Below, in pieces: positions 2,637-22,935 of a stretch of DNA of 32,445 nt. Source of the stretch: a virus; the IMG/VR virus record IMGVR_UViG_3300022752_000247, positions 1-32,445 of that record. The stretch is one strand, 5' to 3'. The translations under genes and the position numbers were made by a program. How positions within the stretch are numbered: position 1 is the first letter of the stretch; every line of letters starts with the position of its first letter. The notes beneath the pieces are model-generated. The model saw nothing but the letters and a program-made list of their open reading frames with translations. It was not told the DNA's origin and made no database searches.

Positions 2637-5363
2637 ATGTCTGCAAATAACGTTTTTTTCAAACCATCATTCTCAATTGAGAATCTTGTCAACGAAAACT
2701 TTCGGTTAGATTCCGAAAGATTTCTTCTTTTCCTTCAAGCGTATTATGAGTGGCTTCAAACCGCTGAGATTGCATTAACAGGAATTTCTGGAACATTTTC
2801 TAGAGATGAAATTGTTACTGGATCTGATACAGGTGCAAGAGCAATTGTTAAAGAAGTTAAAACATCTTCAATTGTTGTGCGTATGCAAACAAACGCACCA
2901 TTTGATTTATATGAATCTTTAACTGGTGGAACAAGTTCAGCTACAGCGACTATTGATTCTATTAAAGATAACGTTGTTAGAAAAACCGGTCAGCTTTTAA
3001 ATTATCGTGACGCAACTAAAACAGTTGATAAGTATGTTGGATTTTTGAAAGATGAATTATATTCTACATTACCTAAAGATATAGAAGCGAACAAGCGATT
3101 AGTTGCAAGAAAGTACAGAGACTTTCTACAGAATAAAGGTAATGAAGAATCCTATAAATTTCTTTTTAGAACAGTGTATGATGAAGATATTGAATTAAAA
3201 TATCCTGGTGAGGATATTCTTAGAGTTTCTGATGGTAATTTTGAAAAGACTCAAATTATTAGAGCGGTTGTTGAAGATGAAACTACCATATTTGATTTTT
3301 TGAATCAAACGATTACAGGTCAAACAAGCGAAGCATTAGGAAATGTAGTTGACATCAAGCTGATTTATGTAGGCTCAACTCGTGTCGCTGAAATAACATT
3401 AAAACTTGTGTCTGGAACATTTGATGCAGGCGAACGAATAGAAATTGTAGACACTGAAACTACAAATACAGCAATTTATGGTATGGTAACAGGATTCACA
3501 ATCAATGACGGCGGATCAGGTTATCAAGTAGGCGATACTGTTACAATTACTAGCAATACTGGCTCAGAAGCACTTGCTGAAGTATCATCTATTAAATCTT
3601 CTCCAATTACAGCTATCACAGTAAACACTCCAGGATACGGTTATAGATTAAATACCAATGCCGTTGTCACAAACACAGGCACAGGCGGTTCAAATTTTGC
3701 TGTGCGTGTTACTGAAATCGCTAACACCTACACAGTAGGTGGATACACTGTCGGCGATACTGCTACGATTTCAATTATAAATCGTGGTTCAGGATATTTT
3801 AGTGCGCCGACAATCACACTCACCGATACCGTAATTAGTTCATTAGGCCTTTTGTCTGACAAATTAATTAACATAGTAAACGGCGGTACAAACTATGCAG
3901 TAGGCGATGCATTAGTATTTACAGGTGGTGCTGGATCAAGTGCATCAGGTAACGTTGCATCTGTGAGTGAAGCGACAACATACGATTTATTATTTGAAGA
4001 CGGCTTTAGAATGAAAGCTGACGGAAGTTATTATGATATTATTAAGAACGAAGATTGGAGTGTAACCGGAGCAATTACTAGATTAGAGCTAACTAACTTT
4101 GGTACCGGATATACTTCAGCAAACTTACCATCAATTTCTGTAACATCAGGAACAGGCTCCTCTGCAAATCTTATAGCAACTGGAATTCAGGGCGAAGGCG
4201 CAAATGTCACGGTAGACATAGCAAACAACAGTGCCGGCATTGGAGCAATCAGAAATATTAGAGTAAAGAATTTTGGTGTCGGTTATGAAAGCGCAAATGT
4301 CAATTTGACAGGATCAGGCGACGGCAATGCAAATGTTACAGCAATAGTTTCTGGTTTAGGTATCAGTGAGGGAACATGGTTAAATGATGGTGGTAAAATT
4401 GATTATAAGATTTTACAAGACTCTTATTATTATCAGGATTTTTCTTACGTCATTAGAAGTGGTTTAGAGTTTAACATATATTCTGATATGATTAAAGAAA
4501 TTATACATCCGGCCGGTCTTCAATTTTTTGGTGAAATTTTATTAACATCTAAAATTGGAGTTCCTGCATCATTTATAAGTATTATTGGAACAGTACAAAA
4601 TATACAACAATACATTCGTTATGTGGAGACATCGTTCTCAGTAGCAACTTCACCTTCAATATCAACATTTAAAACTTTAGTTAAACAACTTTTACCTGAA
4701 CCAGAAGGTGGTTTATTTGGCGGTGCAACTGTTCCATACTATTACGGTGATGAACCTTTATTAGGATATACTTCAGCGTTAATAAGTAGTTATGCTAATA
4801 CAACATTTGACACATTTATTCAACATATTCAAGTTAATGTTCCGATAAGATTTTCCGTATCATTTCAAAGAGATTTGGGTGTTGCTAATGTTTCATCTTC
4901 GGCGTTTTCCGATTTTAGTCATAAGTTAGCTGAAAGTAACTTTAATACTAGTACAAATATTATATCTCAGAGAGAACTTTCTGTTAATTTCAAATCCGAG
5001 GCTAATGCGGAATCTAATTATGTGGTGACAATTGGCGCATTAGGCGATCAGCAAATAAACATTTATGCTTCAAAATCTATAGGTCTTCATTCTTCAGAGA
5101 CTTTTAATGATGAGTATAGCACAACAGTTAAAACATGGAACAGAATGGCAGGATTTATGTCATTATATTCAGGAAGTTCAAATATTGTAGGAACCGGCAC
5201 CAACTTTAATACAGATTTGTTAGTTAATGATATAATTAATGTTGGAAACTCATTGAATAATTCATTAGAACAATTTGTAGTTACGGGCATCTCAAATGCA
5301 ACATATATGACTATAAATGTGCCTGCGACTTATAATTATACACCAGGATATATCTACAAATAA
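2637..5363 (+). CDS. Large baseplate wedge protein in the gp7 position, with GxGY repeats
   Basis: A 908-residue protein directly after gp6, where T4 has gene 7 (1032 aa). The N-terminal region (about 1-200) is mixed helical (FLLFLQAYYEWLQ, KYRDFLQNKGNEESYKFLFR). Residues about 285-570 carry six beta repeats centred on GxGY or GxNY (GGSGYQVGDTV, GYGYRLNT, GSGYFSAPT, GTNYAVGDA, GTGYTSANL, GVGYESANV). They are followed by LQDSYYYQDFSYVI and HPAGLQFFGEI, motifs I associate with marine T4-like wedge proteins. The last 68 residues form a GTGTxF module also found in the DUF4815 protein and the sheath. It is probably the wedge hub that binds gp6, gp8 and gp10-type parts. The gp7 name rests on synteny. 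No ribosome site is evident. Confidence 0.75.
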   Translation: MSANNVFFKPSFSIENLVNENFRLDSERFLLFLQAYYEWLQTAEIALTGISGTFSRDEIVTGSDTGARAIVKEVKTSSIVVRMQTNAPFDLYESLTGGTSSATATIDSIKDNVVRKTGQLLNYRDATKTVDKYVGFLKDELYSTLPKDIEANKRLVARKYRDFLQNKGNEESYKFLFRTVYDEDIELKYPGEDILRVSDGNFEKTQIIRAVVEDETTIFDFLNQTITGQTSEALGNVVDIKLIYVGSTRVAEITLKLVSGTFDAGERIEIVDTETTNTAIYGMVTGFTINDGGSGYQVGDTVTITSNTGSEALAEVSSIKSSPITAITVNTPGYGYRLNTNAVVTNTGTGGSNFAVRVTEIANTYTVGGYTVGDTATISIINRGSGYFSAPTITLTDTVISSLGLLSDKLINIVNGGTNYAVGDALVFTGGAGSSASGNVASVSEATTYDLLFEDGFRMKADGSYYDIIKNEDWSVTGAITRLELTNFGTGYTSANLPSISVTSGTGSSANLIATGIQGEGANVTVDIANNSAGIGAIRNIRVKNFGVGYESANVNLTGSGDGNANVTAIVSGLGISEGTWLNDGGKIDYKILQDSYYYQDFSYVIRSGLEFNIYSDMIKEIIHPAGLQFFGEILLTSKIGVPASFISIIGTVQNIQQYIRYVETSFSVATSPSISTFKTLVKQLLPEPEGGLFGGATVPYYYGDEPLLGYTSALISSYANTTFDTFIQHIQVNVPIRFSVSFQRDLGVANVSSSAFSDFSHKLAESNFNTSTNIISQRELSVNFKSEANAESNYVVTIGALGDQQINIYASKSIGLHSSETFNDEYSTTVKTWNRMAGFMSLYSGSSNIVGTGTNFNTDLLVNDIINVGNSLNNSLEQFVVTGISNATYMTINVPATYNYTPGYIYK

Positions 5364-5364
5364 A

Positions 5365-5372
5365 GATAAATA
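5365..5372 (+). promoter_or_regulatory. Possible degenerate late promoter upstream of gp8
   Basis: GATAAATA differs by one base from the T4 late octamer TATAAATA and lies 43 bases before the gp8 ATG. A second variant, AATAAATA, follows at 5387-5394. The gap of 52 bases between the gp7-like stop and gp8 is long for this region, and gp8 has a good AGGAG site. Those features fit a transcription start, but the one-base mismatch keeps this weak. Confidence 0.35.
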
Positions 5373-5415
5373 TTATGATTTTGTGAAATAAATAAAGTAA
5401 AATTAGGAGAATACT

Positions 5416-6702
5416 ATGCCAGCAGTTGTCAGCAGCAAATTTAGAGTCCATAATGCTCAACAATTTTATGAAGCCTTTTCAGAGACTTCAAATACCATTA
5501 TGTATTTTTATGTAGGTGGTCCAGTAGCATTTACGAATGATGCATCGCCACCAACACCAACAGTGTCCACAGCAAACGTAGAATACTTACCTTGGAGAGA
5601 TATGATGGCACTTAAACGTGTCACATCTTCCGATGTATCTCTAGGAATTCCTAGATACGATTGGACTTCAAGCACAGTTTACGATCAATATGATGATGCA
5701 GATACAAATTTAATTGAGTCGGATGATTTTTATGTTTTAACAGATGATTATCAAGTTTATAAGTGTCTTTTCAATAACGGTGGTGCAGCATCAACCACTA
5801 AACCTACAGGTACAAGCACTTCGCCATTCACCACTGCTGATGGTTACGTTTGGAAATTTATGTATAAATTGAGCACTGGAGAAGTTTTAAAATTCTTGAC
5901 TACAGATTATATGCCTGTTAAACTTCTAGATTCTGATGATGGATCAGATCAGTGGGATGTCCAAGCAGCAGCAGTTGATGGTGCAATTCATGTGATCAAA
6001 GTTACATCGGGTGGTTCTGGTTATGGTGCAGCACCCTCTGTAACAATCACAGGTGACGGAACCGGTGCTACAGCTAACTGTACACTTTCAGGTGGTGCAG
6101 TCAGTGCAGTTACCGTTACAAATGTTGGTTCAGGATACACAACAGCTTCAGTGACATTCGGAAGTGGCGCAGCAGCAGCAACAGCTATCATCAGCCCCAA
6201 GGGTGGTCATGGTGCCAATCCAGTTGAAGAATTGGGTGGAAAATATTTAATTCTTAATGTGCGCTTAGATGGCAATGAATCAAATACTGTATCAACGGCT
6301 AATGATTTTAGAAAGGTGGGTCTTGTTCGTGATCCATATTCATATGGCACAACTACACGCCATGTGGCAACAAATGTTCGCCAAACATATCGGTATACAA
6401 TGGCAAGCGTTTCTGGAACATATTCGATTGATGAAACTGTAACGGTAGGAAGTAATACAGCTACAGTCGTTGAGTGGGACTCAACAAACGGATATCTATA
6501 TACAACGAAGCCAATGACAAAAGATTTTGCTAATGCATCATATGCTGTCGGAGGAACATCTTCAGCAAACGGTTTAATTACTGCTATAAATAATCCAGGC
6601 ATTCAGCCATACACGGGCGATATCATCTATACAGAATTTAGAAGTCCTATTACTAGAGCGACAGACCAGATTGAAGATGTAAAATTAATTATTCAGTTTT
6701 AA
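5416..6702 (+). CDS. 8: Baseplate wedge protein gp8
   Basis: A 428-residue homologue of T4 gp8 (334 aa). The N-terminus [17 protein letters not shown], the IPRYDW motif (about residue 77), the YKCL segment and GYVWKFMYK with a preceding Gly/Thr loop line up with the T4 protein, as does TDYMPVKLL. The extra length comes from two beta insertions: GGSGY repeats at about residues 190-260, and a second segment at about 330-395 ([20 protein letters not shown]). gp8 is a peripheral wedge protein that joins gp7 and gp10 and responds to the baseplate switch. It starts at an AGGAG site and is followed 21 bases later by the DUF4815 gene. Confidence 0.93.
6585..6592 (+). promoter_or_regulatory. Exact TATAAATA octamer inside gene 8
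   Basis: A perfect T4-type late octamer lies within the last 120 bases of gene 8 and about 130 bases before the DUF4815 gene start. It could give extra transcription of the giant gene. It is the only exact copy I found that is not intergenic, so it may be chance in AT-rich coding DNA. Confidence 0.3.
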
Positions 6703-6723
6703 TTTATTGGAATTAAAAAAAAC

Positions 6724-9700
6724 ATGGCCAATACAAATCCAGGTGGGCTGAATTTAAATGTCAGTCCATATTATGATGACTATGATGAAGATAAAAAGTT
6801 TGTAAGAGTTCTTTATGTTCCTGGGCGAGCAGTTCAGGGCAGGGAACTTTCTCAGTCTCAGACATATCAACAAAAACAAATAGAACGGTTTGCTAATTAT
6901 TTCTTTAAGCAAGGTTCTATCATTGATGGTTGTGAGCAAACATTAGATTTAAGTATGCAATATGTTAAGTTGCAATCAACATATAACGCAACTTCAGTTA
7001 ATGTAAACAGTTTTTTATTGAAAGAAATCGTAGGTGCAAACACTGGTGTAAAGGCATATGCTGGATTAGTTTCTGATATTGAGGGTACTGATCCCAAGAC
7101 ATTGTTTATTAATTATACCGCAGCTGGTGCAGTTCTGCTAACAGTAAATACTGCACCATCAACACTTACAGTTGGAAATACAATCACATTTTCAACTGGA
7201 AACACAGCGACAATTAGAGCATGGGTTACTGATCCTATAACAGCTATCAATACAATTTATGTCTCTAACGTTACAGGAACGCTAACAACTACAACAGCAA
7301 ACACAGTATTGTCTACAGGCTCAACTCAAGCACTGAATGTCACTGTAATTACGGATAAAAGATCCTCTTCTACATTTGAAGATTCCGAACTTATTTTCAC
7401 AGCAAACATCACAGGCCGAGCATACGCAAATACAGCAACGTCCGACGCAACTCAGTATATTGTAGATGAGGGTTTGTCTACAGAAAAAACATACACACGT
7501 GGATCTAAAATTACAGTAGGTGATGGTGTTGTTTACATTGCTGATCATTTTGTGAAGAATAGTTCACAGACTGTTATTCTTGATAAGTACACAAATAATC
7601 CATCATACAGAATTGGTTTTGTGCCTACAAAAAGTTATGTGGATTATATTGAAGATAACAGTTTAGTTGACAACGCAGCTGGTACACCAAACTTTCAAGC
7701 GCCTGGTGCTGATCGTCTAAAAATAGATACGACACTCACTAAGATTGCTTTAGGTGAAACAACAGACGAAAACGAATTCATATCGTTATTAGAAGTAGAA
7801 GATGGCATTTCTAAGAAACGCAAAATTTCTGGTATTGAAAGTAAACTAGAAGAAGCTATCGCAAAACGCACATTTGAAGAATCTGGTAACTATACACTTT
7901 CAGATCCAAAAATTAATATTCGTGAGCATCTATCTCAGTCTGGAAATGGCGGTAGATTTTCATCAGCAGAGGGTGGTAATAACAGTCTCCTCTTAGTTGA
8001 AGTTGATCCATTTACAGCATATGTCGGTGGATTCAGAAACGAATTTATTGTGAAACAAAATGTATCAGTAGATAAAGGTTTAGATACACAATATGTTCCA
8101 CAAGTTAAAACACAAATCAATTCAGGCAACTACGTTGAAGTTAAAGAAATGGTTGGTTCATGGGATTTCATGGAAGCAACTTCCGTTGATCTTTATGATA
8201 CAGCGCAACAAGTTGTCAGTAATAATGCATATTCAGTTGCAACAGTCCGCGGTAGTTCAATAGGCACTGCAAAAGTTAAAGCAATTGAATATGTAAGCGG
8301 TACAGTTGGTACAGCGGACGCAAGATATTACTTATATCTTTTTGATGTTGTTATGAATTCTGGTGAGATATTTGATGATGTTCGTTCCGTATATGATTCA
8401 GCGACACCAAAACGCTTTGCTGATATTGTTCTAGATTCTAATGGTAACGCTATTCTTCAAGAGCAGTCATTTGACAAAGCAATTTTCAAATTGCCATATG
8501 ATGCAATCAAAACACTTCGTGATGAAAATAATGATGTTCAAACAGGATTTAGATTTAGAAAAGATTTTTCAGTTACGTTCACTACAGGTGTCGCTACAAT
8601 TTCTACAACAGATTCTAGTGAAACATTTGTAGGAACTGGAGCACTTACAACATCACAGAAAAATGAGAACTATCTAGTTATCATTAATAATTCTGGCGCT
8701 AACGTTGAAACATCAGCTTTGACTGGTACAGTCACAGCAACAGCATCAAGCAATGTCTTGTCAGGAAGCGGAACAGCATTTACAACTCAACTGAATGTCG
8801 GCGATCTAATTAAAGCAAATAATGAAACAAGCAAGATTGCTTCAATTACAAACGCAACATATGCAATTCTATCTTCAGTTAGAACAGTTGGTGCATCGGC
8901 AAATACATTCACTAAGATTCTTCCTGCAGGCACACCAGTATATCTAAGTGGTAATGGTGGTTCAGGTGCAACGAGAACTGTAACAGTATCATCTCCAGGC
9001 ACAATTCAGATTGATCTAAAAGAGAGTGCAACATTCACAGCGAGAGTGATTGCTACAATGGATCGTGCTGATGCTAGAGAGATGACAAAGATTCTCAATT
9101 ATTCTGCAAATACAAATCTAGATCCTAGCACACATCCAAATGGGCTTGTTGGTCCATATAGTTTAGGTAGAGCGGATGTATATCAACTTCGTGGAATCTA
9201 TCAAGCTGCAAACTTTTCAGCAAATGCTACAACATCTAGCACAGATGTGACATCTAGTTATGATTTTGATAATGGCCAGCGTGATAACACTTATGAACAT
9301 GCTACAATTACACCTAAGGTTGGTGTAGTGCCAACTGGAAGATTGCATGTTGTATATGATCATTTTACACATGATACAACACAGGGCGTTGGTTATTTGA
9401 CAATCAATTCTTATCCAATTGATGATGCTGCAACATCTAATACTACAATTAATACAACAAACGTTCCTAAGTATACAAGCACAAGAACTGGTGAAGTGTT
9501 TGATTTAAGAAACTGTATTGATTTTAGACCAATTAAAACAGCAAGCACATCATTGAATCCTACAGATCCAGGAACGTATAATGTGCCCACAGGTGGATTG
9601 CATATTCCTACACCAGGCTCAGACTTTGAAGCAGACTTGATTTTCTACAAAGGTCGTAGAAGCAAACTCTATATTGATTCTAAGGGTTCTCTTGGATTTA

Positions 9701-12700
9701 ATGATGGATCTCCTGGTTATCCAAATCCATTATCGCCACCGACGTTGCCTGATACAATGGACATTGCGGAACTTGTGATTCCTCCATATCCATCAGTGCC
9801 GTCCGACATTGACGTTCAGTTATTCAAAAACAAACGTTATACAATGAAAGACATTGGAAAGATTGAAGAGCGTGTAAACAAATTAGAATATTACACAGCA
9901 CTCAATTTGCTAGAAAAACAAGCAACAGATAAAGTCATTTTAGACGATGATGGTATTGATAGATTTAAGAACGGCATTCTTGTTGATCCATTTACAGGAT
10001 CAGGTGTCGCTGACGTTTCATCGCCAGTTTACAAAGCGTCTATCAATCGCTACGATAAGTATGTAACGGCATACGCTAACAATGAAAATCAAGTTGCTCT
10101 AAAATATACAACAAGCGGTTCTTCTGGTATTACTAGAACGACAGGTAATAAACTCATTCTATCATACTCAGAATCAACCTTCATTGATCAAGCATATGCA
10201 TCTTCAGCATTAAATTTAGCGCAGAATCTAACATACGCTTGGGTGGGCGATGTTTCATTGACACCACCTACTGATAACTGGTTAGATACTGATCGTGTTG
10301 TTGCAAACAATATTGTTATTGATAATTCAGGTGAATCGGATAACTGGAAGAAACTATCTGACGCATGGAATACTGAGATTGCACCAGTTAATCGTCATTG
10401 GATTGGTACGGTTGATGAGCCCAAACAAGTTGGTCAAAGTGTAGATACGCTCAATCAAGGCTTAGACATTCCTAGACAAGTTCGTTCTAATATTCAATCC
10501 GAATACTTAAATAAGTCTGAATTTTCAACGTCAATCAAAGAAAAGAATAAGTCTATTGATCGTGATGTTGATGTGTCTATCGCACATGAAATGCGAAGCA
10601 GAGACTTTGTTTTCAAAGCAACTGGTATGAAACCGGGCGCAAGACTCTATGCATTCTTTGATGGTATAGATGTCACATCAAGCTGCAAACAGATTCGCAT
10701 TCCATCAGGAAAAACGCTGCGTGATTTGTCTGATCAGTATGATAATGACGGTAAAATATCAGCAGCAGCAAATACAGTTTATTATAATTTAGTTTCTAAT
10801 GGTCTTTTGCGTGTAGAAGATAATTACGAAGTTCTTGGTATATTTACAGTTCCAGCAAATCGCTTTAAAGTTGGAACTAGGGAATTTAAACTGACAGATA
10901 GTTCTACAAATGCAGACAGTGGCACAACAACAGTGGCAAGAGAAACACTCCAAGCAGTTGGTGTAAGTCAAATCAAGAGTGTTTCAGTTTTAAATACTAG
11001 ACCATTTAGCATTTCTTTTGATGCAGCAAACGTTAGAAGTCTTCCTGGGCGCTTGTCTTCATCACTGGCAAGTGATGCTGCTGCAACCGTTCGTAGAACT
11101 GGCACAGTCACACCATTTACAGATGCACCTCGTAGACCAGATCCTCTTTCACAAAGTTTTTATATTGATGATGCATTCTATCCAGATGGTGTCTTTGTAA
11201 CTTCCGTTGATCTATACTTTAAGTCTAAATCAGATGACAATCATTTAGGCGTATCGGTTGAAATCCGTGAAATGGAAAACGGTCTTCCAACTAAGAAAGT
11301 GATTGGTGGTGAAAGGGCTAGAGTTCTTTCTTCAGCAATTACTACAAGTGCAACCGCAGGATCTGCTACAACATTTACATTTGATAGCCCAATCTACTTG
11401 TTACCAGGTAACGAATATTGCTTCTCAGTAAAACCTGATGGTAATGCAGATGACTTTGAATTGTGGGTTGCTGAATTAGGTCAGATTGATGTTACAAATT
11501 CTGATACAAGTATTAGAATTGATAGAAACAATGCACTCGTTGGTGGTGTTCTATTTACTACATCAAGTGAATACAACTATTCAGTCAAACAAGCACTTGA
11601 TATTAAATTTAAAATGAAGATTGCTACGTTCTCAACATCAACAACTGGTGTAGCGTTATTCAATAATAGTGCATTTTCAAATAATATAACATACGGTGCA
11701 TTCCAAACTAACGTTGAAGATTTAATTCCATCAAGAACCGCTATCACATACGAAGCAAAAACTGCTGATAGCACATACACTGCTGGCGATTTTTTCACAG
11801 TTAAAAATCTTGAACGTGTTATTCTTACATCACAAGCGCAGATTTCAAATACTACAAATGAAACTGCTGAAGCATTCAAGTCATTTACAGTTCGTGCATC
11901 AATGTCAACCGATAGTCAATATATCAGCCCGTACATTGATCTGACACGAGGCAATATTGCACTTGAAGACTTTATCATCAATAATACGACATCAAATACG
12001 CTGACTGGCACTGTTACCTATTCAGCGGCATCAAACGTTGTCGTAGGAACTGGTACAGCATTTACAACTGAAATTGATGCTGGTGAATATGTTAAATTTG
12101 GTGATCAATTTAGATTGGTCGCAAACGTTGTTAACGCAACTTATATGACAGTTTCAACAAACTTTACCGAGGCAAATGATGTAAATCAAACCATTTCAAT
12201 GGAAAACGAAGAGAATCCAGAAGGACCTTATGTTTCTGATACTAGATACATAACAAGACGGGTTGCATTAAACGATGGTTTTGAAGCGTCTGATTTAGTT
12301 GTTTATTTGGATGTAAATAGACCAGCCGGCACTGATATCAAAGTATATTACAAGATTTTGAATGAAAACGATAATGACACATTTGATGATAAATTCTACC
12401 AAGAAATGTCATTGAGTGGCACAAAAATATTCAATCAAAACTCTAGAATATATTCTGAAGAGAAATATATAGTACCAACAGCAATTAAAACTGGTGGAAG
12501 CACATTACTTTCTGGTACAGTTTTAATTTCTAGTTCAAATACAGATGTTGTCGGAACTTCTACAAGATTTATTGAAGATTTAAGAATAGGCGACACAGTT
12601 GCAGCTGGTGTTGCTAGAAGTCAGCGGGTGGTGTCAACGATTGTAAATAACACATTTTTAACAGTTGAAAGCGCATTTAGTACCTCAAATAATAGTCAAG

Positions 12701-13094: not shown

Positions 13095-13095
13095 T

Positions 13096-15120
13096 ATGCC
13101 AATTGCAAATGTAGAACTATCAAATACCTTTAATCAGTTTCGTACCACAACGAATGATGTAATTCAGCAAGTCAATGCGGCCGCATCAGCAAATGGTAAT
13201 TCAACCATCGTCGCTAGAGATGCTTCAGGATCTTTTACTGCGAATAATATAACCGCTACAACATTCTCTGGTTCTGGAGCATCCTTAACAAATATAAACG
13301 CATCTAATGTAGCATCAGGAACTTTAGCAAATGCTAGAACAACAGCTTCAAGTTCTAATGGCGCTTCAACCATCGTCGCTAGAGATGCTTCAGGATCTTT
13401 TACTGCGAATAATATAACCGCTACAACATTCTCTGGTTCTGGAGCATCCTTAACAAATATAAACGCATCTAATGTTTCTTCAGGCACTTTAAATGCTACT
13501 AGATTAGCAACATCAGGTGTTACTGATGGAGCTTATGGTAATAGTACATCCGTTCCTCAACTCATTGTTGACACCTACGGTAGAGTTACTTTAGCATCAA
13601 ATGTGAGTATTAATGGTATTAATCAATTTAATTATCACACAGGTAACGCAAACTTTCAAATTACCACTCCTTCAGGAAGTTCTTATACAGCGACAATTGG
13701 TCAAGATTTAGGAACAACTGCTAATCCAACGTTTAATAATCTTGTTGTTTCAGGCAATCTAACTGTTTCTGGAACTACAACAACAATTTCAGCAAACAAT
13801 TTAAAAATTGAAGATAATCTCATTTATCTAAATGATGCATCATCAAATACTAACGTTGATTTAGGTTTTGCTGGCAATTATAACGACGGTACATATAGAC
13901 ATGCAGGCTTGGTCAGAGATGCTGACGACGGTGTATGGAAATTTTTTCATCAGTATACTCCTGAACCTGATGCTTCAGCAAACTTAGACACTTCAAATGT
14001 AACATTCGTTTTTGCTCCATTAAAAGCTGGTGACATCACATCTAATAGTATTTTTTATGGTAACGGTTCAGGATTAACAACACTCAATGCTTCTAATGTT
14101 TCTTCAGGTACTTTAGCAAATGCTAGAACAACAGCTTCAAGTTCTAATGGCGCTTCAACCATCGTCGCAAGAGATGCTGGTGGAAATTTTACAGCAAATG
14201 GTATCACAGCAACTTCTGTTAGTGCTCCAACACTTACGGGTGTTGCTTCAGTTGCTACTGTAGCGAATACATCCACACTAACGGCAGATAATACAACAAA
14301 TGCTACAAACTATGTACCATTTACAAATTCTGCTACAGGCAATCAAGCACTCAGAACAAGTTTAGGATTTAGTTTTAATCCTAGCACAAATACATTAACT
14401 GCTGGTGTTTTCAGTGGTTCTGGTGCATCACTTACGAGTATTCCTAACAGTGCTACAACAGCTTCAAGTTCTAATGGCGCTTCAACCATTGTCGCTAGAG
14501 ATGCTTCAGGATCTTTTACCGGAAACACTATAACCGCTACAACATTCTCTGGTTCTGGAGCATCACTTACGAGTATTCCTAACAGTGCTACAACAGCTTC
14601 AAGTTCTAATGGCGCTTCAACCATTGTCGCTAGAGATGCTGGTGGAAATTTTACAGCAAATAATATAACTGCTGCTAATTTAACAACTTCAGGAATTGCT
14701 ACACTGAATAGTCAGACTGTGTTTAATTCGTTCATGAAAGAAAAAGCGAATGTTTCATCAACGGCTGCTACAGGAATCATAAATTTTGATGCTGTCACGG
14801 CGCCAGTTTTGTATTACACCGCAAATAGCACAGGAAACTTTTATTTAAATGTAAGAGGAAACTCTACAAATACATTTAATTCATTGACATCTAATAATGA
14901 AGCTGTTAGCGTAGCATTTTTAGCGACACAAGGTGCTACTCCATATTATCATTTAACTAATATTCAAATTGACGGATCAAATAATGCCATAAGATGGCAG
15001 GGTGGATCAGCACCAACATCAGGAAATGCAAATAGTATTGATGGATTTGCATTTACGATCATTAAAACTGCGAATGCTACATATACTGTGTTAGGATCTC
15101 AAACACAGTTTAAAGCGTAA
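13096..15120 (+). CDS. Repeat-built tail fibre protein
   Basis: A 674-residue Ser/Thr/Ala/Asn-rich fibre. It contains five copies of a module reading ST.VARDA(S/G)G.F(T)..(N/G)xITA, at about residues 36, 91, 354, 463 and 508, spaced by 55, 263, 109 and 45 codons. Between copies 2 and 3 lies a conserved fibre segment (NLKIEDNLIYLNDAS, HAGLVRDADDGVWKFFH). The C-terminal 140 residues (from about 535; FYLNVRGNST, VAFLATQGATPYYHL, QIDGSNNAIRWQGG, FTIIKT) match a domain I remember from the ends of cyanophage fibre-like proteins. It probably forms a trimeric shaft with a distal beta domain. It starts two bases after the coiled-coil gene without a visible Shine-Dalgarno. Confidence 0.85.
   Translation: MPIANVELSNTFNQFRTTTNDVIQQVNAAASANGNSTIVARDASGSFTANNITATTFSGSGASLTNINASNVASGTLANARTTASSSNGASTIVARDASGSFTANNITATTFSGSGASLTNINASNVSSGTLNATRLATSGVTDGAYGNSTSVPQLIVDTYGRVTLASNVSINGINQFNYHTGNANFQITTPSGSSYTATIGQDLGTTANPTFNNLVVSGNLTVSGTTTTISANNLKIEDNLIYLNDASSNTNVDLGFAGNYNDGTYRHAGLVRDADDGVWKFFHQYTPEPDASANLDTSNVTFVFAPLKAGDITSNSIFYGNGSGLTTLNASNVSSGTLANARTTASSSNGASTIVARDAGGNFTANGITATSVSAPTLTGVASVATVANTSTLTADNTTNATNYVPFTNSATGNQALRTSLGFSFNPSTNTLTAGVFSGSGASLTSIPNSATTASSSNGASTIVARDASGSFTGNTITATTFSGSGASLTSIPNSATTASSSNGASTIVARDAGGNFTANNITAANLTTSGIATLNSQTVFNSFMKEKANVSSTAATGIINFDAVTAPVLYYTANSTGNFYLNVRGNSTNTFNSLTSNNEAVSVAFLATQGATPYYHLTNIQIDGSNNAIRWQGGSAPTSGNANSIDGFAFTIIKTANATYTVLGSQTQFKA
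13201..13475 (+). repeat. Perfect 110-bp direct repeat in the fibre gene
   Basis: Bases 13201-13310 recur without mismatch at 13366-13475, an offset of 165 bases (55 codons), so the reading frame is kept. The unit encodes one VARDASGSF module plus its SGSGASLTNINASN linker. The third copy shares 59 exact bases with the second (13321-13379 and 14110-14168). Confidence 0.95.
14425..14640 (+). repeat. Perfect 81-bp direct repeat in the fibre gene
   Basis: Bases 14425-14505 recur exactly at 14560-14640, an offset of 135 bases (45 codons). The unit encodes ASLTSIPNSATTASSSNGAS and the start of the ARDA module. It uses ATT where the first repeat pair uses ATC (ACCATTGTCGC against ACCATCGTCGC), so the two pairs are separate recent duplications. 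Confidence 0.93.
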
Positions 15121-15142
15121 TTGAACATGGAGAAATAACAAA

Positions 15143-16081
15143 ATGCCTTTAATAACTACATTCGGCGGAATTGCAATTAAGCGATTTGGATTTTCTTCTG
15201 GGGCTAAAGCGTTTTTTGCTGAATTGCTGTTGATAGCTGGAGGCGGGGGCGGTGGTAGTATTAACGCATTTACAGGCGGAGGCGGTGGTGGTGGATATAG
15301 AACATTTTCAGGAGGATCGGCAGTAAGACTTGTTAAAGGAGATATACTTACTGTAACAGTAGGTGGTGGCGGTAGTGGCGGTGGAGGAAAAGGATCTAAC
15401 TCACGATTCGGATCATATTGTTCAACTGGTGGTGGCGGTGGAAGTAATGCTGGTGGCAGTGGTGGCGGTAGTGGTTCTTCTAGTGGCGGTAGTGGTAATG
15501 AAGGTGCATATACTCCAGCTGAAGGTTGTAACGGTGGTGGTGGAGGTCCATCACATCGAGGGCCTACGGGGAGTCATTTTCCAGTGGGTTCGAACCCTGC
15601 CGCATATCAAACCGGTGGCGGTGGTGGAGGTTCTGGCGCTGCCGGTTCTACGGCATCCGACTATAATTGGGCTGGTGGCGGTGGAAGCGGTGGAAATGGC
15701 GGTTCAGGAAGAGCAAGTAGTATAACTGGAAGTTCAGTTCATCGTGCCGGTGGAGGCGGTGGCGCTTATGGTGGAACCGGTCATGGTGCAAATGGTGGTG
15801 CGGGAGGAGCAGGAGGAGGCAGTAATGGTATAAGCTATTATGGATATGCTAGTTATGGAAGATCTGCGCCGCATGGTCATCATAGTGGTGGAACAAACAC
15901 GGGTGGCGGTGGTGGAGTTCCTGCTGGTGGTGGATCTGGAATTGTAATTATAGCATATCCAAGCACTGAAGCAGATATAACAACAATTGATGTTGGATTA
16001 ACATACAGCTTGAGCACTGTATCTAGAAGTGGATATAAGGTTTATTCATTCACAGCTGGTTCAGGAAATATAACAATATAA
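15143..16081 (+). CDS. Polyglycine-rich fibre tip / adhesin-like protein
   Basis: A 312-residue protein. A short N-terminal segment (GGIAIKRFGF) is followed, from about residue 32 to 270, by many runs of three to seven glycines broken by Ser, Asn, Tyr and His. LVKGDILTVTVGGGG and SGIVIIAYPS flank the glycine region, and the end reads GYKVYSFTAGSGNITI. The pattern AxLLIAGGGGGG...SGIVIIxYP is common in phage tail proteins with glycine-rich domains. Polyglycine helices with exposed loops form the receptor-binding tip in gp38-type adhesins; that role here is inferred from composition and from the place next to the fibre gene. A weak GGAGAA site precedes the ATG. Confidence 0.8.
   Translation: MPLITTFGGIAIKRFGFSSGAKAFFAELLLIAGGGGGGSINAFTGGGGGGGYRTFSGGSAVRLVKGDILTVTVGGGGSGGGGKGSNSRFGSYCSTGGGGGSNAGGSGGGSGSSSGGSGNEGAYTPAEGCNGGGGGPSHRGPTGSHFPVGSNPAAYQTGGGGGGSGAAGSTASDYNWAGGGGSGGNGGSGRASSITGSSVHRAGGGGGAYGGTGHGANGGAGGAGGGSNGISYYGYASYGRSAPHGHHSGGTNTGGGGGVPAGGGSGIVIIAYPSTEADITTIDVGLTYSLSTVSRSGYKVYSFTAGSGNITI
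15235..15945 (+). repeat. GGT/GGC-rich glycine codon tract
   Basis: This stretch of the glycine-rich gene is dominated by GGT, GGC and GGA codons and is much richer in G than its AT-rich surroundings. Long open frames in other phases here are composition shadows. Such tracts favour slipped pairing and local recombination. Confidence 0.8.
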
Positions 16082-16089
16082 AAAAAAAA

Positions 16090-16548: not shown

Positions 16549-16595
16549 ATTTAAATTTCTTAACATTATCATAAAATAAAAAGAATAATCGCACT

Positions 16596-16603
16596 TATAA
16601 ATA
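16596..16603 (+). promoter_or_regulatory. T4-type late promoter upstream of gp13
   Basis: An exact TATAAATA octamer sits in the 81-base gap before gene 13, 26 bases upstream of the ATG. T4 late promoters consist of this octamer recognised by gp55, with gp33 and the gp45 clamp as coactivators. An AAGGA ribosome site follows at 16619-16623. The rest of the gap is AT-rich with no other clear signal. Confidence 0.85.
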
Positions 16604-16629
16604 GCCATGTTACAATTTAAGGATTTAAC

Positions 16630-17373
16630 ATGGCTAAACCTACCACAAGAGAAGACTTCAAAGAGTATTGCTTACGCAAGCTAGGCAAGCCTGTTCTTGA
16701 AATTAACGTTGATGATACACAAGTTGAAGACAGGATTGATGAAGCGTTAGCCTATTATCACGATTATCATTTTGATGGAACGCAGAAAGTTTATTTAGCG
16801 CATCAAGTCACTGAAGAAGATAAGACAAACAAATATCTCACTATACCAGAAGCTGTTATAGGTGTTATCAACATCTTTGACATCGGCGATTCTTACTCAA
16901 CCAATAATCTCTTCAACATCCGTTATCAAATCGCATTGAATGATCTATTTGCATTCAATTATGGACCATTTGCGCCATACTACATGGCTCTTCAGAATGT
17001 AGCACTTGCTGAAGAATTGTTTGTGGGCAAACAAAGTATGAGATACAATCGCCATGTGAATAGACTCTACATTGATATGGACTGGGAAGCAAAGATTGTT
17101 ACAGGAGAATATATCATTGTTGAAGCGTACCAAAAAGTAGATCCTGAAACATACTCAGACGTATGGAGTGATCGCTGGCTTGAACGATATGCGACAGCAC
17201 TCATTAAAAAACAATGGGGTGAAAATCTGAAAAAGTTTGAGGGGCTTCAAATGCCTGGTGGTTTGACATTCAATGGTCAGAGAATTTGGGATGAAGCAAC
17301 GGAAGAACTTACAAAACTTGAAGAAGAAATGATTTCTTCATATTCTCTACCAGTTTCTGATATGATTGGATAA
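16630..17373 (+). CDS. 13: Neck protein gp13 (head completion)
   Basis: A 247-residue homologue of T4 gp13 (309 aa). Recognisable parts are the N-terminus (REDFKEYCLRKLGKPVLEINV), DRIDEALAYYHDYHFDG, the PEAVIGVINIFDI segment, the RLYIDMDW block and KKQWGENLKKFEGLQMPGG near the C-terminus, which is the best-conserved part of the family. gp13 joins gp14 at the neck, closing the packaged head and forming the docking site for the tail. It is the first gene after an exact late promoter, and gp14 follows with a 2-base gap. Confidence 0.93.
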   Translation: MAKPTTREDFKEYCLRKLGKPVLEINVDDTQVEDRIDEALAYYHDYHFDGTQKVYLAHQVTEEDKTNKYLTIPEAVIGVINIFDIGDSYSTNNLFNIRYQIALNDLFAFNYGPFAPYYMALQNVALAEELFVGKQSMRYNRHVNRLYIDMDWEAKIVTGEYIIVEAYQKVDPETYSDVWSDRWLERYATALIKKQWGENLKKFEGLQMPGGLTFNGQRIWDEATEELTKLEEEMISSYSLPVSDMIG

Positions 17374-17375
17374 GA

Positions 17376-18191
17376 ATGGCACGCAATCGCTATTTCAATC
17401 AATATGGTACACAGAGTGAACAAAACGTATACGAAGATTTAATTATAGAATCTATAAAGATATACGGTATTGATGCGTATTATATACCAAGAACTTCTGG
17501 GTATGTAGATCAAATCTATGCTGAAGACAGACTATCACTTTTTGATGATGCGATTTCATTAGAACTTTTTGTTAAAAGTTATGACGGTTTTATTGGTCAA
17601 GAAGATTTTCTTTCTAAGTTTGGTTTGCAGATTGATGAGCAAATCAATTTTGTCGTTGCACAAAAACGATTCACACAATCGCTAAAAACAAGTCTGTTGA
17701 CAGAATATGGTTATAACTTTAAGACTGAAGATGGAAATCAGCTACTCTATGATGTATCTGACGCATGGGATTACTCAGACATTCTTCGCCCAAGAGAAGG
17801 CGATTTGATATGGATTCCAATGATGGGATACATGTACGAAATTAAGTTTACTGAAAACACTGAAAACTTTTTCCCATTAGGCAAACTCTTCACATACGAA
17901 ATGAGATGTGATAGATACGAATACAGTAGTGAACGAATTGACACCGACGTTGCAGACATTGATGCAGTTGAAGATGACTTTTCAGAATCAACATCTATCA
18001 TTGATAACATTCTTCTGGAAGATACTGATTCATTGCTTCTTGAAGATGACACCATTCTTCTCACAGAAGGTGAACACATCAAGACGGTTGATGCTGAATC
18101 CGATAACGATTATATCACTGATAGAATTCGTGACGGTGACATCATTGATTTCTCGGAGTCAAATCCGTTTTCATTAGTTAAGGAGTACTAA
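17376..18191 (+). CDS. 14: Neck protein gp14
   Basis: A 271-residue homologue of T4 gp14 (256 aa). The N-terminus (ARNRYFNQYGTQSEQNVYEDLIIESIKIYG) and IYYIPR-like segment, LELFVKSYDGFIGQEDFLSKFG and PREGDLIWIPMMGYMYEIKF are typical of the family. gp14 and gp13 form the neck collar between portal and tail. An acidic C-terminal stretch at about 187-260 contains repeated LLLEDD-like units (ILLEDTDSLLLEDDTILLTE), a motif I have seen in other phage structural proteins. The next gene begins 2 bases after the stop, behind its own AAGGAG. Confidence 0.93.
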   Translation: MARNRYFNQYGTQSEQNVYEDLIIESIKIYGIDAYYIPRTSGYVDQIYAEDRLSLFDDAISLELFVKSYDGFIGQEDFLSKFGLQIDEQINFVVAQKRFTQSLKTSLLTEYGYNFKTEDGNQLLYDVSDAWDYSDILRPREGDLIWIPMMGYMYEIKFTENTENFFPLGKLFTYEMRCDRYEYSSERIDTDVADIDAVEDDFSESTSIIDNILLEDTDSLLLEDDTILLTEGEHIKTVDAESDNDYITDRIRDGDIIDFSESNPFSLVKEY

Positions 18192-18193
18192 TC

Positions 18194-18919
18194 ATGATGT
18201 TCGGTCATGACTTCTATCATGGTATTGTTAGAAAATATATTGTTATGTTTGGTAATCTATTTAATGAACTTCAGATTGAAAGATATAATGATTCAGGTAC
18301 AAAAATACAAACACTCAATGTGCCTATTGCTTACGGACCTAAAGCAAAGTACATAGCAAGAATTACTTCAGATCCAGATTTGAATCGTGAAATTTCTATC
18401 ACACTACCTAGATTATCATTTGAATTAACTTCATTAACTTATGCACCAGATAGAAAATTGAATACTGGTTTAAGATTGAAGAGAGGTATAAACACAGGCG
18501 GCACAGATTTTTCTGGTGTTTATGCACCAATACCATACGACATGGGATTTTCGTTATCTATTATGACAAAGTACGCTGAAGATGGCGTTCAATTAGTAGA
18601 AAAGATTATACCATTTTTTACACCAGACTTCACAGTAACCGTTAAAGCACTAACTGATTTATCACTCAATCTTGATGTGCCTATTGAACTAAATGGTATA
18701 ACAAACAATGACTCATACGAAGGCGATTTTGAGAGTAGAAGGGTTATCACTTGGGATTTAAATTTTACTGTAAAAGGTTATCTATTTGGTCCTGTTACAA
18801 AGACTAAGTATATCACGAGTGCAGTTATTAATTTGAGAGATGAAACGACTGACGCTACAGTTTCAACAACAACATTTACTGGCAATTCTGAATTTGGATT
18901 TACTGAGACGCTGACATGA
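18194..18919 (+). CDS. 15: Tail completion / sheath stabiliser gp15
   Basis: A 241-residue homologue of T4 gp15 (272 aa), the hexameric ring that caps the sheath and tube and binds the neck. The N-terminus (MFGHDFYHGIVRKYIVMFGNLFN.LQIER), the PIAYGPK segment, ITLPRLSFEL, MGFSLSIMTKYAEDGVQLVEKIIPFF.PDF and RRVITWDLNFTVKGYLFGP follow the T4 protein closely. AAGGAG at 18180-18185 is 8 bases from the ATG at 18194 and 11 from the in-frame ATG at 18197; T4 gp15 begins MFG, so either start is plausible. Its TGA overlaps the gp16 ATG. Confidence 0.93.
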   Translation: MMFGHDFYHGIVRKYIVMFGNLFNELQIERYNDSGTKIQTLNVPIAYGPKAKYIARITSDPDLNREISITLPRLSFELTSLTYAPDRKLNTGLRLKRGINTGGTDFSGVYAPIPYDMGFSLSIMTKYAEDGVQLVEKIIPFFTPDFTVTVKALTDLSLNLDVPIELNGITNNDSYEGDFESRRVITWDLNFTVKGYLFGPVTKTKYITSAVINLRDETTDATVSTTTFTGNSEFGFTETLT

Positions 18920-19323
18920 AAAAACCTATTAATGAAAAGATAAGCGATGCACTGGATATTCCTTATATTGAAAACACTCCTCAAGAACGTCCTGTCGCAT
19001 CTATTGTGAAAAAACAAGAGGATTCTATTGACGATGATTATCTCTACGCTAGGGACAATCTTAAGCACTTTATTGAAAAAGGTAAAGAGGCTATGGATGA
19101 AATCATTTACTTAGCAAAAGAAGTAGAATCGCCTAGAGCATATGAAGTTGTTGGCCAATTGATTAAAACATTGTCTGATACTAATAAAGATTTATTAGAC
19201 CTTTCTAAGAAAGTCAAAGAACTCAAACAGAAAGATGAAGAAAAACAACCGACACATGTGACAAATGCTCTATTTGTAGGCAGCACAGCAGAGTTACAAA
19301 AACTACTCAAAGGCGATGGCTAA
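18916..19323 (+). CDS. 16: Small terminase subunit gp16
   Basis: A 135-residue homologue of T4 gp16 (164 aa). An acidic N-terminal tail (to about residue 40) is followed by two helices with strong coiled-coil character (DNLKHFIEKGKEAMDEIIYLAKEVE and AYEVVGQLIKTLSDTNKDLLDLSKKVKEL) and a C-terminal NALFVGSTAELQKLL motif, which is typical of the family. gp16 forms a ring that recognises DNA and stimulates the packaging ATPase. The ATG overlaps the gp15 stop (ATGA) and the last 8 bases overlap gene 17, as in many T4-like phages. Confidence 0.92.
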   Translation: MKKPINEKISDALDIPYIENTPQERPVASIVKKQEDSIDDDYLYARDNLKHFIEKGKEAMDEIIYLAKEVESPRAYEVVGQLIKTLSDTNKDLLDLSKKVKELKQKDEEKQPTHVTNALFVGSTAELQKLLKGDG

Positions 19324-20962
19324 AAAAATATACTTAGGAAATCCGCTTCTTAAAGCAGCAGGAGTTTCCGTACCATTTACAAAAGAGAACATTCAAGAAT
19401 ACATAAAATGTTCAGAAGATTATATTTACTTTATTGAAAAATATTGTAAGATTGTTACGCTTGATTATGGTTTGCAACCGTTTAATCTTTACGATTGTCA
19501 GAAAGAAAAGTTGGACATTATACATAACAATCGTAAAGTTATACTCATGGAGCCACGGCAGCAAGGCAAAACTACAACGTCAGCAGCATATATTCTCTGG
19601 TATACTTTATTTCAAGGCAGCAAAACTGTTGCAATTCTAGCAAACAAAGCGACAGCAGCACGAGAAGTTTTAGCACGATATCAATTGATGTACGAAAATC
19701 TTCCTCAATGGCTTCAGCAAGGCGTCAAGACATGGAACAAAGGTGACATTGCACTTGAAAATGGATCAATTGTTTTCACAGCAGCAACAAGCAGACAAGG
19801 TATCCGTGGTAAGTCTGTCAATCTATTGTATGTTGATGAAACTGCAATCATACCAAATAATATAGCAGAAGAATTCTTCACGGCCGTTTCACCAACCATT
19901 TCTGCTGGTTCTACAACTAAAATTCTTCTATCTTCTACACCACTCGGATACAATCATTTCTGGAAATTCTGGAATGATGCAGAAAATGGTAGAAACGATT
20001 TCATACCACTTTTCATACCATACTGGAAGATACCTGGGCGTGATGAAAAATGGGCTGAAGAACAGAAAAGGCAGCTCGGCAATCTCAAATTTAACCAAGA
20101 GATTCTCTGTGCATTCTTAGGATCAAGTCTTACACTCATTGCTTCAGATTCTATAGCACAAATGTCTGCATCTAGACCTATATACAGCAAAGATGGTTTA
20201 GACATTTACGAAAAAGTGGAGAAAAATGCTTCGTATGTATTGGTTGCAGACGTTGCAAAAGGCCTCGGTGGCGACTATTCAGCGTTCACGGTACTCAGAA
20301 TTGATGAAATGCCTTACAGACAAGTTGGTAAGTTTAGAGATAATCAAATCAGCCCGTTGCTATATCCTTCTATGATATACAAAGTTGCTAAAGAATATAA
20401 CGATGCATGGGTTCTCATTGAAATTAATACATCAGAACAAGTTGCTGAAATTCTACATAGTGAATATGAATACGAGAACATTATATTTGTGAATAGAACA
20501 GCACAGGGCCAAGTTGTTTCAGGCGGTTTCGGTGGTGGTAAGACGCAGCTAGGTGTCACAACAGACAAAAAAATCAAACGAATTGGTTGCATGAACTTCA
20601 AATCTTTAGTCGAAGGCAAAAAATTGCTGATCCAAGATGCTGATACCATTGCTGAAATTTCAACTTTCATAGAAAGAAGATATAGTTATTCAGCAGATGA
20701 AGGATATCACGACGATTTAGTGATGCCGCTAGTGCTTTTTTCATGGCTGACAACCAATCCATATTTTAAAGAATTGACAAATACAAACATCCGAAAAGAA
20801 TTGTATGAACAGAGGATGAAAGCTATTGAAGATGAAGTTACTCCTTTTGGTATTATTGATGATGGCCGTGATGAAACTCAGATTGTAGACGCAGGTGGTC
20901 AAGTCTGGGAAATTGAAGATCGTATGGAAAGAAGAGAAAAGAACTTTCTAATGAATCTATAA
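19316..20962 (+). CDS. 17: Large terminase subunit gp17 (packaging ATPase/nuclease)
   Basis: A 548-residue homologue of T4 gp17 (610 aa), the motor that translocates DNA into the prohead and cuts the concatemer. Walker A is EPRQQGKTT at residues 79-87, Walker B with the catalytic glutamate is LLYVDE at 170-175, and the coupling motif is SST at 206-208. The RNase H-like nuclease domain begins near residue 305, with acidic residues at D312 (VADVAKG), E369 (LIEINTS) and D466/D467 (HDDLVM). All key residues are present, with no intein or intron in the frame. It ends the transcription unit before the gp18 promoter. Confidence 0.97.
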   Translation: MAKKIYLGNPLLKAAGVSVPFTKENIQEYIKCSEDYIYFIEKYCKIVTLDYGLQPFNLYDCQKEKLDIIHNNRKVILMEPRQQGKTTTSAAYILWYTLFQGSKTVAILANKATAAREVLARYQLMYENLPQWLQQGVKTWNKGDIALENGSIVFTAATSRQGIRGKSVNLLYVDETAIIPNNIAEEFFTAVSPTISAGSTTKILLSSTPLGYNHFWKFWNDAENGRNDFIPLFIPYWKIPGRDEKWAEEQKRQLGNLKFNQEILCAFLGSSLTLIASDSIAQMSASRPIYSKDGLDIYEKVEKNASYVLVADVAKGLGGDYSAFTVLRIDEMPYRQVGKFRDNQISPLLYPSMIYKVAKEYNDAWVLIEINTSEQVAEILHSEYEYENIIFVNRTAQGQVVSGGFGGGKTQLGVTTDKKIKRIGCMNFKSLVEGKKLLIQDADTIAEISTFIERRYSYSADEGYHDDLVMPLVLFSWLTTNPYFKELTNTNIRKELYEQRMKAIEDEVTPFGIIDDGRDETQIVDAGGQVWEIEDRMERREKNFLMNL

Positions 20963-20973
20963 AACGTCATTTT

Positions 20974-20981
20974 TATAAATA
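20974..20981 (+). promoter_or_regulatory. T4-type late promoter upstream of gp18
   Basis: An exact TATAAATA in the 77-base gap between genes 17 and 18, 58 bases before the sheath ATG. An AAGGAG site at 21027-21032 completes a leader suited to strong expression of the sheath and the two tube genes. A weak AATGAT/ATCATT inverted repeat also lies in the leader. Confidence 0.85.
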
Positions 20982-21039
20982 AACTGAAAATGATTGTAAA
21001 ATATTGATATAAACATCATTATATTCAAGGAGAACATAA

Positions 21040-22935
21040 ATGGCAATTAGTCTAGTTTCACCTGGAATCAAGATTACAGAAAAGGATCTTGTTTCTACGC
21101 TTCCTTCAGTTGGAGCAACTGTAGGTGGTTTTTCTGGTCAATTTCGTTGGGGACCAATTGAAGAAGCAACATTGGTGACAAGCGAAGTCGCTTTGGCTGA
21201 TCAATTTGGAAAACCTAACGCTACAAATATCGTAGATTTTCTTTCAGCAGCAAACTTCTTAAGCTATTCTTCAGCATTGAGAGTTGTTCGTGTAGCAAAC
21301 ACTGCACTCAATGCTACAGCATCTAACACGACAGCAGACAGTGCAAACGCTGGCACAGGTGTCTTAATTAAGAATCTTGAAACTTATAACAATACAAGTT
21401 CTTTTGATAATGGTCCTTGGGCAGCAAGATATGCAGGTGCATTAGGAAACTCCCTTAAAGTTTCTACTTGCCCATCTTCAGCAGCATGGCAGTCAACACT
21501 AAGTGGTACATTTACCGTAGCAGCAGGTTCTACAGCAGTTGTTGGTTCAGGTTCAGCAGCAAATACTGAACTTTCAGTTGGCGATTTGTTCATTGCAGGT
21601 GGCCGTACAATTAAAGTTGCGGCTATTACTAATGCAACACACTTCACACTTGCTTCATCACATCTAACTGGTGTCACAGCAGGTTCTACAGCAACACGCC
21701 GCTGGGAATACTACGGTGAATTTACAGCAGCACCAGGAACATCAACAGATGGTACAACAAAAGGCGCAACTAATGATGAAATGCACGTTGTTGTCGTTGA
21801 TGAAGACGGTCTAATCACAGGCGTTGCAGGTCAAGTTTTAGAAAAGTATGATGGTCTTTCAAAAGGATCAGATGCTAAGGGTGAACAAGGTGGCTCTAAT
21901 TACTATAAAGATGTAATTAACGCATCATCAAGATATGTTTACTGGACAGATCATGATGTAGCAGGTGTAAATTGGGGCAATGCTCTAACAGGCACAACAT
22001 ATACCGCTGTCACTACACCTAAAAAGTATAGTCTTGCTGGTGGTTCAGACGGTAACTCATTGACTGATGGTAACAGAATTACAGGTTACGGATATTTTGC
22101 AAACAAAGATTTAGTTCCAGTCAATATCATGATTGCTGGTCAAGCAACAGCTACCGTTGTAAATACTATCATTTCAGATATTTGCGAATTGAGAAAAGAT
22201 TGTATCGTTTGCGCTTCACCATTAAGAGCAAACGCAGTAAACAACGCAGGATCAGAAGTTACAAGCATTACAACATGGGCAGGAACAGTCACACGTTCGT
22301 CTTATGCAGTTGCAGATAGCGGTTGGAAATATCAATATGATAAGTATAATGATGTTTACGTTTATGTGCCATTGAACGCAGACACAGCAGGATGTATTGC
22401 TAGAAATGATAACAATCGTGAACCATGGCTTTCACCAGCAGGCATTGCAAATGGTGTTATCAATAATGTAATCAAACTTTCTTGGAATCCTAAACAAGAA
22501 GACCGTGATGCATTGTATAAGTTAGCAGTAAATCCAGTGTTCACGCAAACGGGCCGTGGAACAATTCTATTTGGCGATAAGACATTTATTCTTAAAAACT
22601 CATCGTTCAGCAGAGTTAATGTTCGTAAATTGTTTATTGAACTTGAAAGAACAATTGGTGCTTCAGCAGAAAGTGTATTGTTTGAACAGAATGATGCTAC
22701 AACAAGAGCAACGTTCGTAAATCTAATTACACCATATCTAAGAAGCGTACAAGCTAGAAGAGGCATTACAAACTTCAGAGTCATTTGTGACGGCACAAAT
22801 AACCCAGAAGATGTAGTCTTAGCAAACGAATTTGTATGTGACATTTTTGTTCAGCCAATTACTTCAGTAAACTTTATTCAACTAAACTTTGTTTCTGTTA
22901 GAGGTTCCGCATCCTTTACCGAAGTTACAGCCTAA
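21040..22935 (+). CDS. 18: Tail sheath protein gp18
   Basis: A 631-residue contractile sheath protein (T4 gp18, 659 aa). The N-terminus (SLVSPGIKITEKDL....PSVGATVGGFSGQFRWGPI) is the conserved sheath start. The C-terminal half (REPWLSPAGIANGVINNV, LSWNPKQEDRDALYKLAVNPVF, GRGTILFGDKT, INVRKLF-type segment, PYLRSVQARRGI) is the conserved core that interlocks adjacent subunits. Residues about 154-211 hold a GT-rich module (SGTFTVAAGSTAVVGSGSA..ELSVGD) shared with the DUF4815 and gp7-like proteins, probably on the outer sheath surface. The gene has an exact late promoter and a strong ribosome site. Confidence 0.96.
   Translation: MAISLVSPGIKITEKDLVSTLPSVGATVGGFSGQFRWGPIEEATLVTSEVALADQFGKPNATNIVDFLSAANFLSYSSALRVVRVANTALNATASNTTADSANAGTGVLIKNLETYNNTSSFDNGPWAARYAGALGNSLKVSTCPSSAAWQSTLSGTFTVAAGSTAVVGSGSAANTELSVGDLFIAGGRTIKVAAITNATHFTLASSHLTGVTAGSTATRRWEYYGEFTAAPGTSTDGTTKGATNDEMHVVVVDEDGLITGVAGQVLEKYDGLSKGSDAKGEQGGSNYYKDVINASSRYVYWTDHDVAGVNWGNALTGTTYTAVTTPKKYSLAGGSDGNSLTDGNRITGYGYFANKDLVPVNIMIAGQATATVVNTIISDICELRKDCIVCASPLRANAVNNAGSEVTSITTWAGTVTRSSYAVADSGWKYQYDKYNDVYVYVPLNADTAGCIARNDNNREPWLSPAGIANGVINNVIKLSWNPKQEDRDALYKLAVNPVFTQTGRGTILFGDKTFILKNSSFSRVNVRKLFIELERTIGASAESVLFEQNDATTRATFVNLITPYLRSVQARRGITNFRVICDGTNNPEDVVLANEFVCDIFVQPITSVNFIQLNFVSVRGSASFTEVTA

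Follow-up and report, generated by a model that had tools for sequence, protein, structure and literature searches.

The tail sheath protein gp18 of phage T4 exposes its domains I and II to solution. Domain I is a six-stranded barrel that is inserted in domain II and faces outward, and it binds the baseplate and the retracted long fibres (PMC3004832). On sheaths and tubes, extra domains have been proposed to help adhesion (PMC9230969, PMC8718954), and Ig-like domains are shuffled among phage structural proteins (PMC9230969, PMC10684548). The module that we describe here resembles those Ig-like domains in being a small beta domain found across classes of virion protein. It differs from them in that it is not Ig-like by predicted topology and in that its sites are stable over the group we sampled.

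We analyzed a viral record of 32,445 bases (the window), which holds the T4-like virion cluster of an aquatic T4-like phage. The cluster encodes gp25, gp6, a gp7-like protein, gp8, a DUF4815 protein of 2044 residues, fibre-like proteins, neck proteins, terminase, the sheath protein gp18, two tube proteins, portal, protease, scaffold and the major head protein; some of these names were assigned by reading the sequence together with gene order. The original prediction was that one Gly- and Thr-rich (GT) beta module occurs five times in the gp7-like, DUF4815 and sheath proteins, and that it either serves a common binding function or was spread by recombination within the cluster. We find that the module is real, ancient and site-stable, and that it represents a known phage domain put to a variant use.

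Five copies of one module in three virion proteins

PHROG and Pfam matches agree with the identities proposed for the three parent proteins (Table 1). The sheath matches PF17482 at 8e-15, PF04984 at 8e-13 and PF22671 at 3e-6. Its nearest relatives in named phages are those of Ochrobactrum phage OC (46.6%) and Pelagibacter phage Mosig (44.2%), and relatives in IMG/VR are numerous, with up to 72% identity. As predicted, the parent proteins are unrelated overall: when the DUF4815 protein was searched against the window's own record, it matched only itself and the sheath module (21475-21699).

Table 1. Parent proteins and module copies in the window
Feature	Position	Strand	Evidence
gp7-like baseplate wedge protein	2637..5363	+	phrog_17744 baseplate wedge 8.7e-50
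gp7-like module copy, residues 841-897 of 908 (C-terminus)	5157..5327	+	leave-one-out profile
DUF4815 protein, 2044 aa	6724..12858	+	PF16075 4.7e-40; phrog_358
D1 module copy, DUF4815 protein residues 666-720	8719..8883	+	leave-one-out profile
D2 module copy, DUF4815 protein residues 1760-1815	12001..12168	+	leave-one-out profile; model topology
D3 module copy, DUF4815 protein residues 1929-1986	12508..12681	+	leave-one-out profile; model topology
Tail sheath protein gp18, 631 aa	21040..22935	+	phrog_23 9.2e-110; PF17482, PF04984, PF22671
Sheath gp18 module copy, residues 154-211	21499..21672	+	leave-one-out profile; model pLDDT 91-95

Other features of the cluster were observed alongside these. 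Two adjacent tail-tube-like proteins (22962-23540 and 23553-24185), a duplicated gp19, are 35% identical over 198 residues. A fibre-like protein (13096-15120) has several near-identical internal repeats around SSNGASTIVARDASGSFTANNITATTFSGSGASLT, and between the fibre and neck genes lies a 312-residue protein in which glycine is very abundant (15143-16081). Adjoining the portal gene is a tail-fibre-like protein with a long collagen-like Gly-X-Y stretch (25918-27399). Viral records name relatives of the C-terminal part of the DUF4815 protein virulence-associated VriC/VrlC protein, which is probably a misleading label for a structural protein of the baseplate region.

Each module copy was scored with a profile built from the other four, and 500 composition shuffles of each copy served as the control. 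In this leave-one-out comparison, the gp7 copy scored 37.0 bits (best shuffle 13.1), D1 58.8 bits (13.5), D2 55.8 bits (12.2), D3 43.3 bits (12.1) and the sheath copy 49.5 bits (6.8). All five segments are in frame, and the module is 52-58 residues long. The leave-one-out profiles establish that the five segments are homologous copies of one module, which occurs in the sheath and in two further virion proteins, all three otherwise unrelated. Real copies score clearly higher than shuffled Gly/Thr/Ser-rich segments (37-59 vs at most 13.5 bits), so the original prediction withstands the shuffling control that could have refuted it. The motif that defined the module is present in the five copies, except that the sheath copy reads GSGSAAN instead of GTGTxF and so lacks the near-universal Phe. 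A profile search at E 0.1 found no sixth copy elsewhere in the six-frame translation of the window. A single-copy tblastn search over phage records returned only five weak matches, with a query that reads LSGT where the window has LTGT.

Predicted fold of the module

We modeled the sheath (42 sequences, pLDDT 83.5) and the C-terminal part of the DUF4815 protein (24 sequences, pLDDT 77.9, pTM 0.38) with AlphaFold. Because of its pTM, the DUF4815 model is usable for within-domain topology only, and folds were compared by the order and spacing of strands in the sheath copy, D2 and D3. In the sheath copy, strands are predicted at residues 157-160, 164-170, 183-186, 189-196 and 201-208, with a helix at 174-177. 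D2 has strands at 164-166, 173-177, 190-193, 196-203 and 208-211 and a helix at 181-184 (model numbering), and D3 has strands at 333-336, 342-346, 359-362, 367-376 and 379-382 and a helix at 350-353 (model numbering). Counted from the start of the first strand, the elements begin at 0, 7, 17, 26, 32 and 44 in the sheath copy, at 0, 9, 17, 26, 32 and 44 in D2, and at 0, 9, 17, 26, 34 and 46 in D3. The same topology is predicted for all three copies: strand-strand-short helix-strand-strand-strand, with near-identical spacing. In these models, the order of elements is that of a small beta-barrel and not of an Ig sandwich. The seven-strand topology of an Ig-like beta-sandwich was rejected as a candidate, since the three copies are predicted to have five to six strands and, behind the second of these, a short helix. 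A Foldseek search of the DUF4815 C-terminus against the PDB gave no convincing whole-chain match.

The sheath model aligns with the sheath of a Klebsiella phage KP1 variant (VIA-align Z 40.9) and with T4 gp18 (3j2m; Z 35.1 over 468 residues). The window sheath has the core domains and the gp18-like fold of a T4-like tail sheath protein.

Position of the sheath insert

The comparison with T4 supports insertion of the sheath module in the region equivalent to gp18 domain II, between early strands; it is flanked by the strand that carries the LGNSLKVS motif and by the RRWEYY...APGTS segment. T4 gp18 domain I (PF22639) is likewise a barrel-like domain inserted around domain II. However, T4 domain I (98-188) precedes the first domain II strands, whereas the window module follows those strands. 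PF22639 did not match the window sheath at E up to 1, and it matches T4 gp18 itself at 96-188. By analogy with T4, the slot is probably exposed on the sheath. On our reading of the sequences, T4 appears to hold about 27 other residues at this place.

Conserved sites in relatives

A profile search of fetched loci found 266 module copies in 216 proteins. Copies lie at residues ~155-210 of the sheath, near the C-terminus of gp7, and at residues ~692, ~1786 and ~1956 of the DUF4815 protein. The gp7 proteins that are more distant also have an internal site, and DUF4815 proteins have copies at further positions. A copy near the C-terminus is found in 70 of 88 gp7 relatives, and most of the remainder are cut by a contig end or carry a further domain after the module. 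The gp7 stretch before this copy varies greatly in length among relatives. Three gp7 relatives (L209, L210 and L212) extend past the C-terminal module with a PTSINEGANGTFNV...LYWTI stretch, possibly an Ig-like domain.

The nearest neighbor of a copy comes from the same site for 53/55 sheath copies, 11/11 D2 copies and 11/12 D3 copies. Identity within the sheath and DUF4815 sites is 44-54%, and within the gp7 C-terminal site 35%; between sites it is 24-37%, and copies within one genome average 31%. On a module tree (57 columns, 216 rows), we counted 15 changes of site label, where the least possible number is 5 and the shuffled mean is 121.6. Only clustering by site was read from this tree, single branches not being trusted, and that clustering is inflated by close relatives, although its sign is still clear. 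These data clearly suggest that the copies at each site descend from an old lineage of their own and that the sites were filled long ago.

A recent spread of the module through the virion gene cluster, by recombination or gene conversion, would fit the occurrence of all five copies in 16.5 kb of a single cluster and the 47% identity between the sheath copy and D1. However, identity at the same site in other phages is higher (up to 77% for the sheath, 80% for D1 and 82% for D2), and the sheath and DUF4815 copies are only 28-47% identical to other sites within the same genome. The few label changes on the tree also stand against recent spread, as does the longest exact DNA match between two window copies, which is 15 bp. 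Because copies group by site and not by genome, across divergent phages, the data do not support a recent spread in the cluster. As a recent process, the recombination of the original prediction is already contradicted, and we regard it as extremely improbable.

Exchange of slot content

More distant relatives carry different modules, or none, at the same places. The sheath slot holds a VGDTT-type module in Mosig, HTVC008M, Melnitz and many contigs and GGSGY modules in S-CAM1, whereas Xanthomonas phage X1 and Acidovorax phage ACP17 have nothing in this slot. Distant DUF4815 relatives have a GGSGY module in place of D2 and a cleanly empty slot at D3. In hhalign, a VGDTT profile built from nine clean seeds aligns with the GT module at 89-95% and a score of 29-38, and column shuffles reach at most 12.6, so the two module types are related. 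The same type of profile comparison showed no relation between GGSGY and the GT module (hhalign probability 1.6%). A relation of T4 gp18 domain I to GGSGY is no more than a lead, since the two overlap over only 17-22 residues, at 12.6 bits. The content of the fixed slots is exchanged over longer times, with VGDTT-type modules, GGSGY modules and empty slots as the alternatives. Domain exchange thus stands as slow replacement within fixed slots, not as recent spread.

GGSGY is a second recurring beta module, which occupies sheath and DUF4815 slots in other phages. In the window, it occurs in the gp7-like protein (residues 291-346) and in gp8 (5416-6702; residues 177-254). In the sheaths of X1 and ACP17 (L250 and L253), GGSGY modules lie at residues ~227-316, which is a third position where sheaths carry an insertion.

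Known relatives of the module

The module type is already known, as originally proposed: it is a building block that is common in phages and widespread among their tail proteins. We searched a profile of 32 representatives against solved structures, PHROG and Pfam. PHROG 1980 was matched by 26 of the 32 (best 6.5e-12; DUF4815 copy 2 at 6.9e-7), and the whole DUF4815 protein and the whole sheath match it as well. Among tail-fibre PHROGs, the module matches 1980 above all and also 17834, 28473 and 2712. Residues 7-57 of the F2-pyocin side fibre (PDB 25ve) match the profile at 2.5e-5, and residues 4-58 of the distal tail protein gp20 (PDB 23gd) at 1.6e-5. Pfam holds no model for the module, and the best low-level matches there were MS_channel_2nd (8.5e-4, three members) and TIG (0.023).

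With the four fibre PHROGs and the F2-pyocin side fibre, the likeness is sequence homology over the whole module. The position differs: the module is N-terminal in the tail-fibre families, whereas here it is a loop insertion in the sheath and DUF4815 proteins and a C-terminal cap in gp7. The distal tail protein gp20 also has a module homologous in sequence, but in another host protein and at another position. As judged by these matches, the modules are homologous to the PHROG 1980 type, while their parent proteins are not members of that fibre family.

D2 was also compared with solved structures. It resembles the tailspike gp49 of Pseudomonas phage LKA1 (4ru4; Z 10.4, 77 residues, 1.8 Å), the tail tube of Acinetobacter phage Mystique (9n71; Z 8.5, 72 residues, 2.5 Å) and the phi92 endosialidase (Z 5.3). 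For D3, matches at Z 6-7 fall on the N-terminal barrels of rotary ATPases and on a portion of the lambda tail tip protein; Z values of 6-8 can mean no more than a shared arrangement. The insertion regions of LKA1 gp49 and the Mystique tail tube resemble D2 in structure, with no match by sequence, and these Z values may reflect a common small-barrel arrangement.

Discussion

The columns common to all sites are G, T, V, G, T, F, G, D, V/I, I and T, and the site-specific columns differ. From the alignment, the common columns look structural, of a kind that would keep the fold. Because the all-site columns appear structural and the site-specific ones differ, a single ligand for all copies is unlikely. 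The proposal of a common binding function is therefore not supported, as what the sites have in common is Gly, Thr, Val, Phe and a GD turn.

A related possibility is glycan-binding adhesion, in which copies on the sheath and baseplate weakly bind host-surface sugars and so keep the phage on the cell. Tailspikes and fibres contain similar folds, as in the matches of D2 to LKA1 gp49 and phi92 endosialidase; the F2-pyocin side fibre is related by sequence; and extra sheath and tube domains have been proposed as adhesion aids (PMC9230969, PMC8718954). However, no common exposed polar or aromatic patch is apparent in the sequences across sites, and in fibres the module is N-terminal. The N-terminus of a fibre is usually the end attached to the virion, not the receptor end. 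We consider adhesion unlikely.

It is also doubtful that the module is neutral filler, that is, bulk in loop insertions that tolerate any stable small domain. The slots hold different modules or nothing in relatives, and similarity between sites is no more than that of fold, both of which would be consistent with filler. However, site and sequence are strongly conserved, the sheath copies being 54% identical on average between loci, and the gp7 C-terminal copy is present in nearly all complete relatives despite the length variation before it.

We favor as the probable explanation that one small beta-barrel domain is a plug-in part in fixed slots, providing local decoration or docking that is specialized by site. 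The plug-in positions are the sheath slot between early strands of the domain II-equivalent region, two loops of the DUF4815 C-terminal beta domain (D2 and D3), another site in DUF4815 and the C-terminal end of gp7, which the module caps. At each, the module would fold independently, face outward and offer a decoration or docking surface that was specialized separately. Docking might join the sheath to the baseplate or to folded-back fibres, or one baseplate part to another. Such a role would be akin to that of T4 gp18 domain I, though from a different slot, and judged by this parallel the sheath module most likely presents an outward-facing surface for docking or decoration.

A more specific arrangement, which we think very unlikely, is that the sheath and baseplate copies are partners: the lowest-ring barrels would dock on the gp7-end or DUF4815 copies as a latch made of one fold and released by contraction. 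If true, the latch would hold the extended sheath, and a change of module type in the slots of one protein would call for a matching change in its partner.

Relative to the original prediction, the gain is the description of fixed slots with exchangeable content and the evidence that contradicts recent spread in the cluster. Since natural sheaths without the module exist, the role of outward sheath domains can be tested by clean removal. The module can link unrelated virion proteins in similarity searches, a warning for annotation by such matches. Three proteins of one abundant group of aquatic T4-like phages, namely the sheath, a baseplate wedge protein and the DUF4815 protein, draw on one small domain; the fixed slots are defined insertion points in sheath and baseplate proteins, and changes in their content account for some of the odd variation in length among gp18 and DUF4815 proteins.
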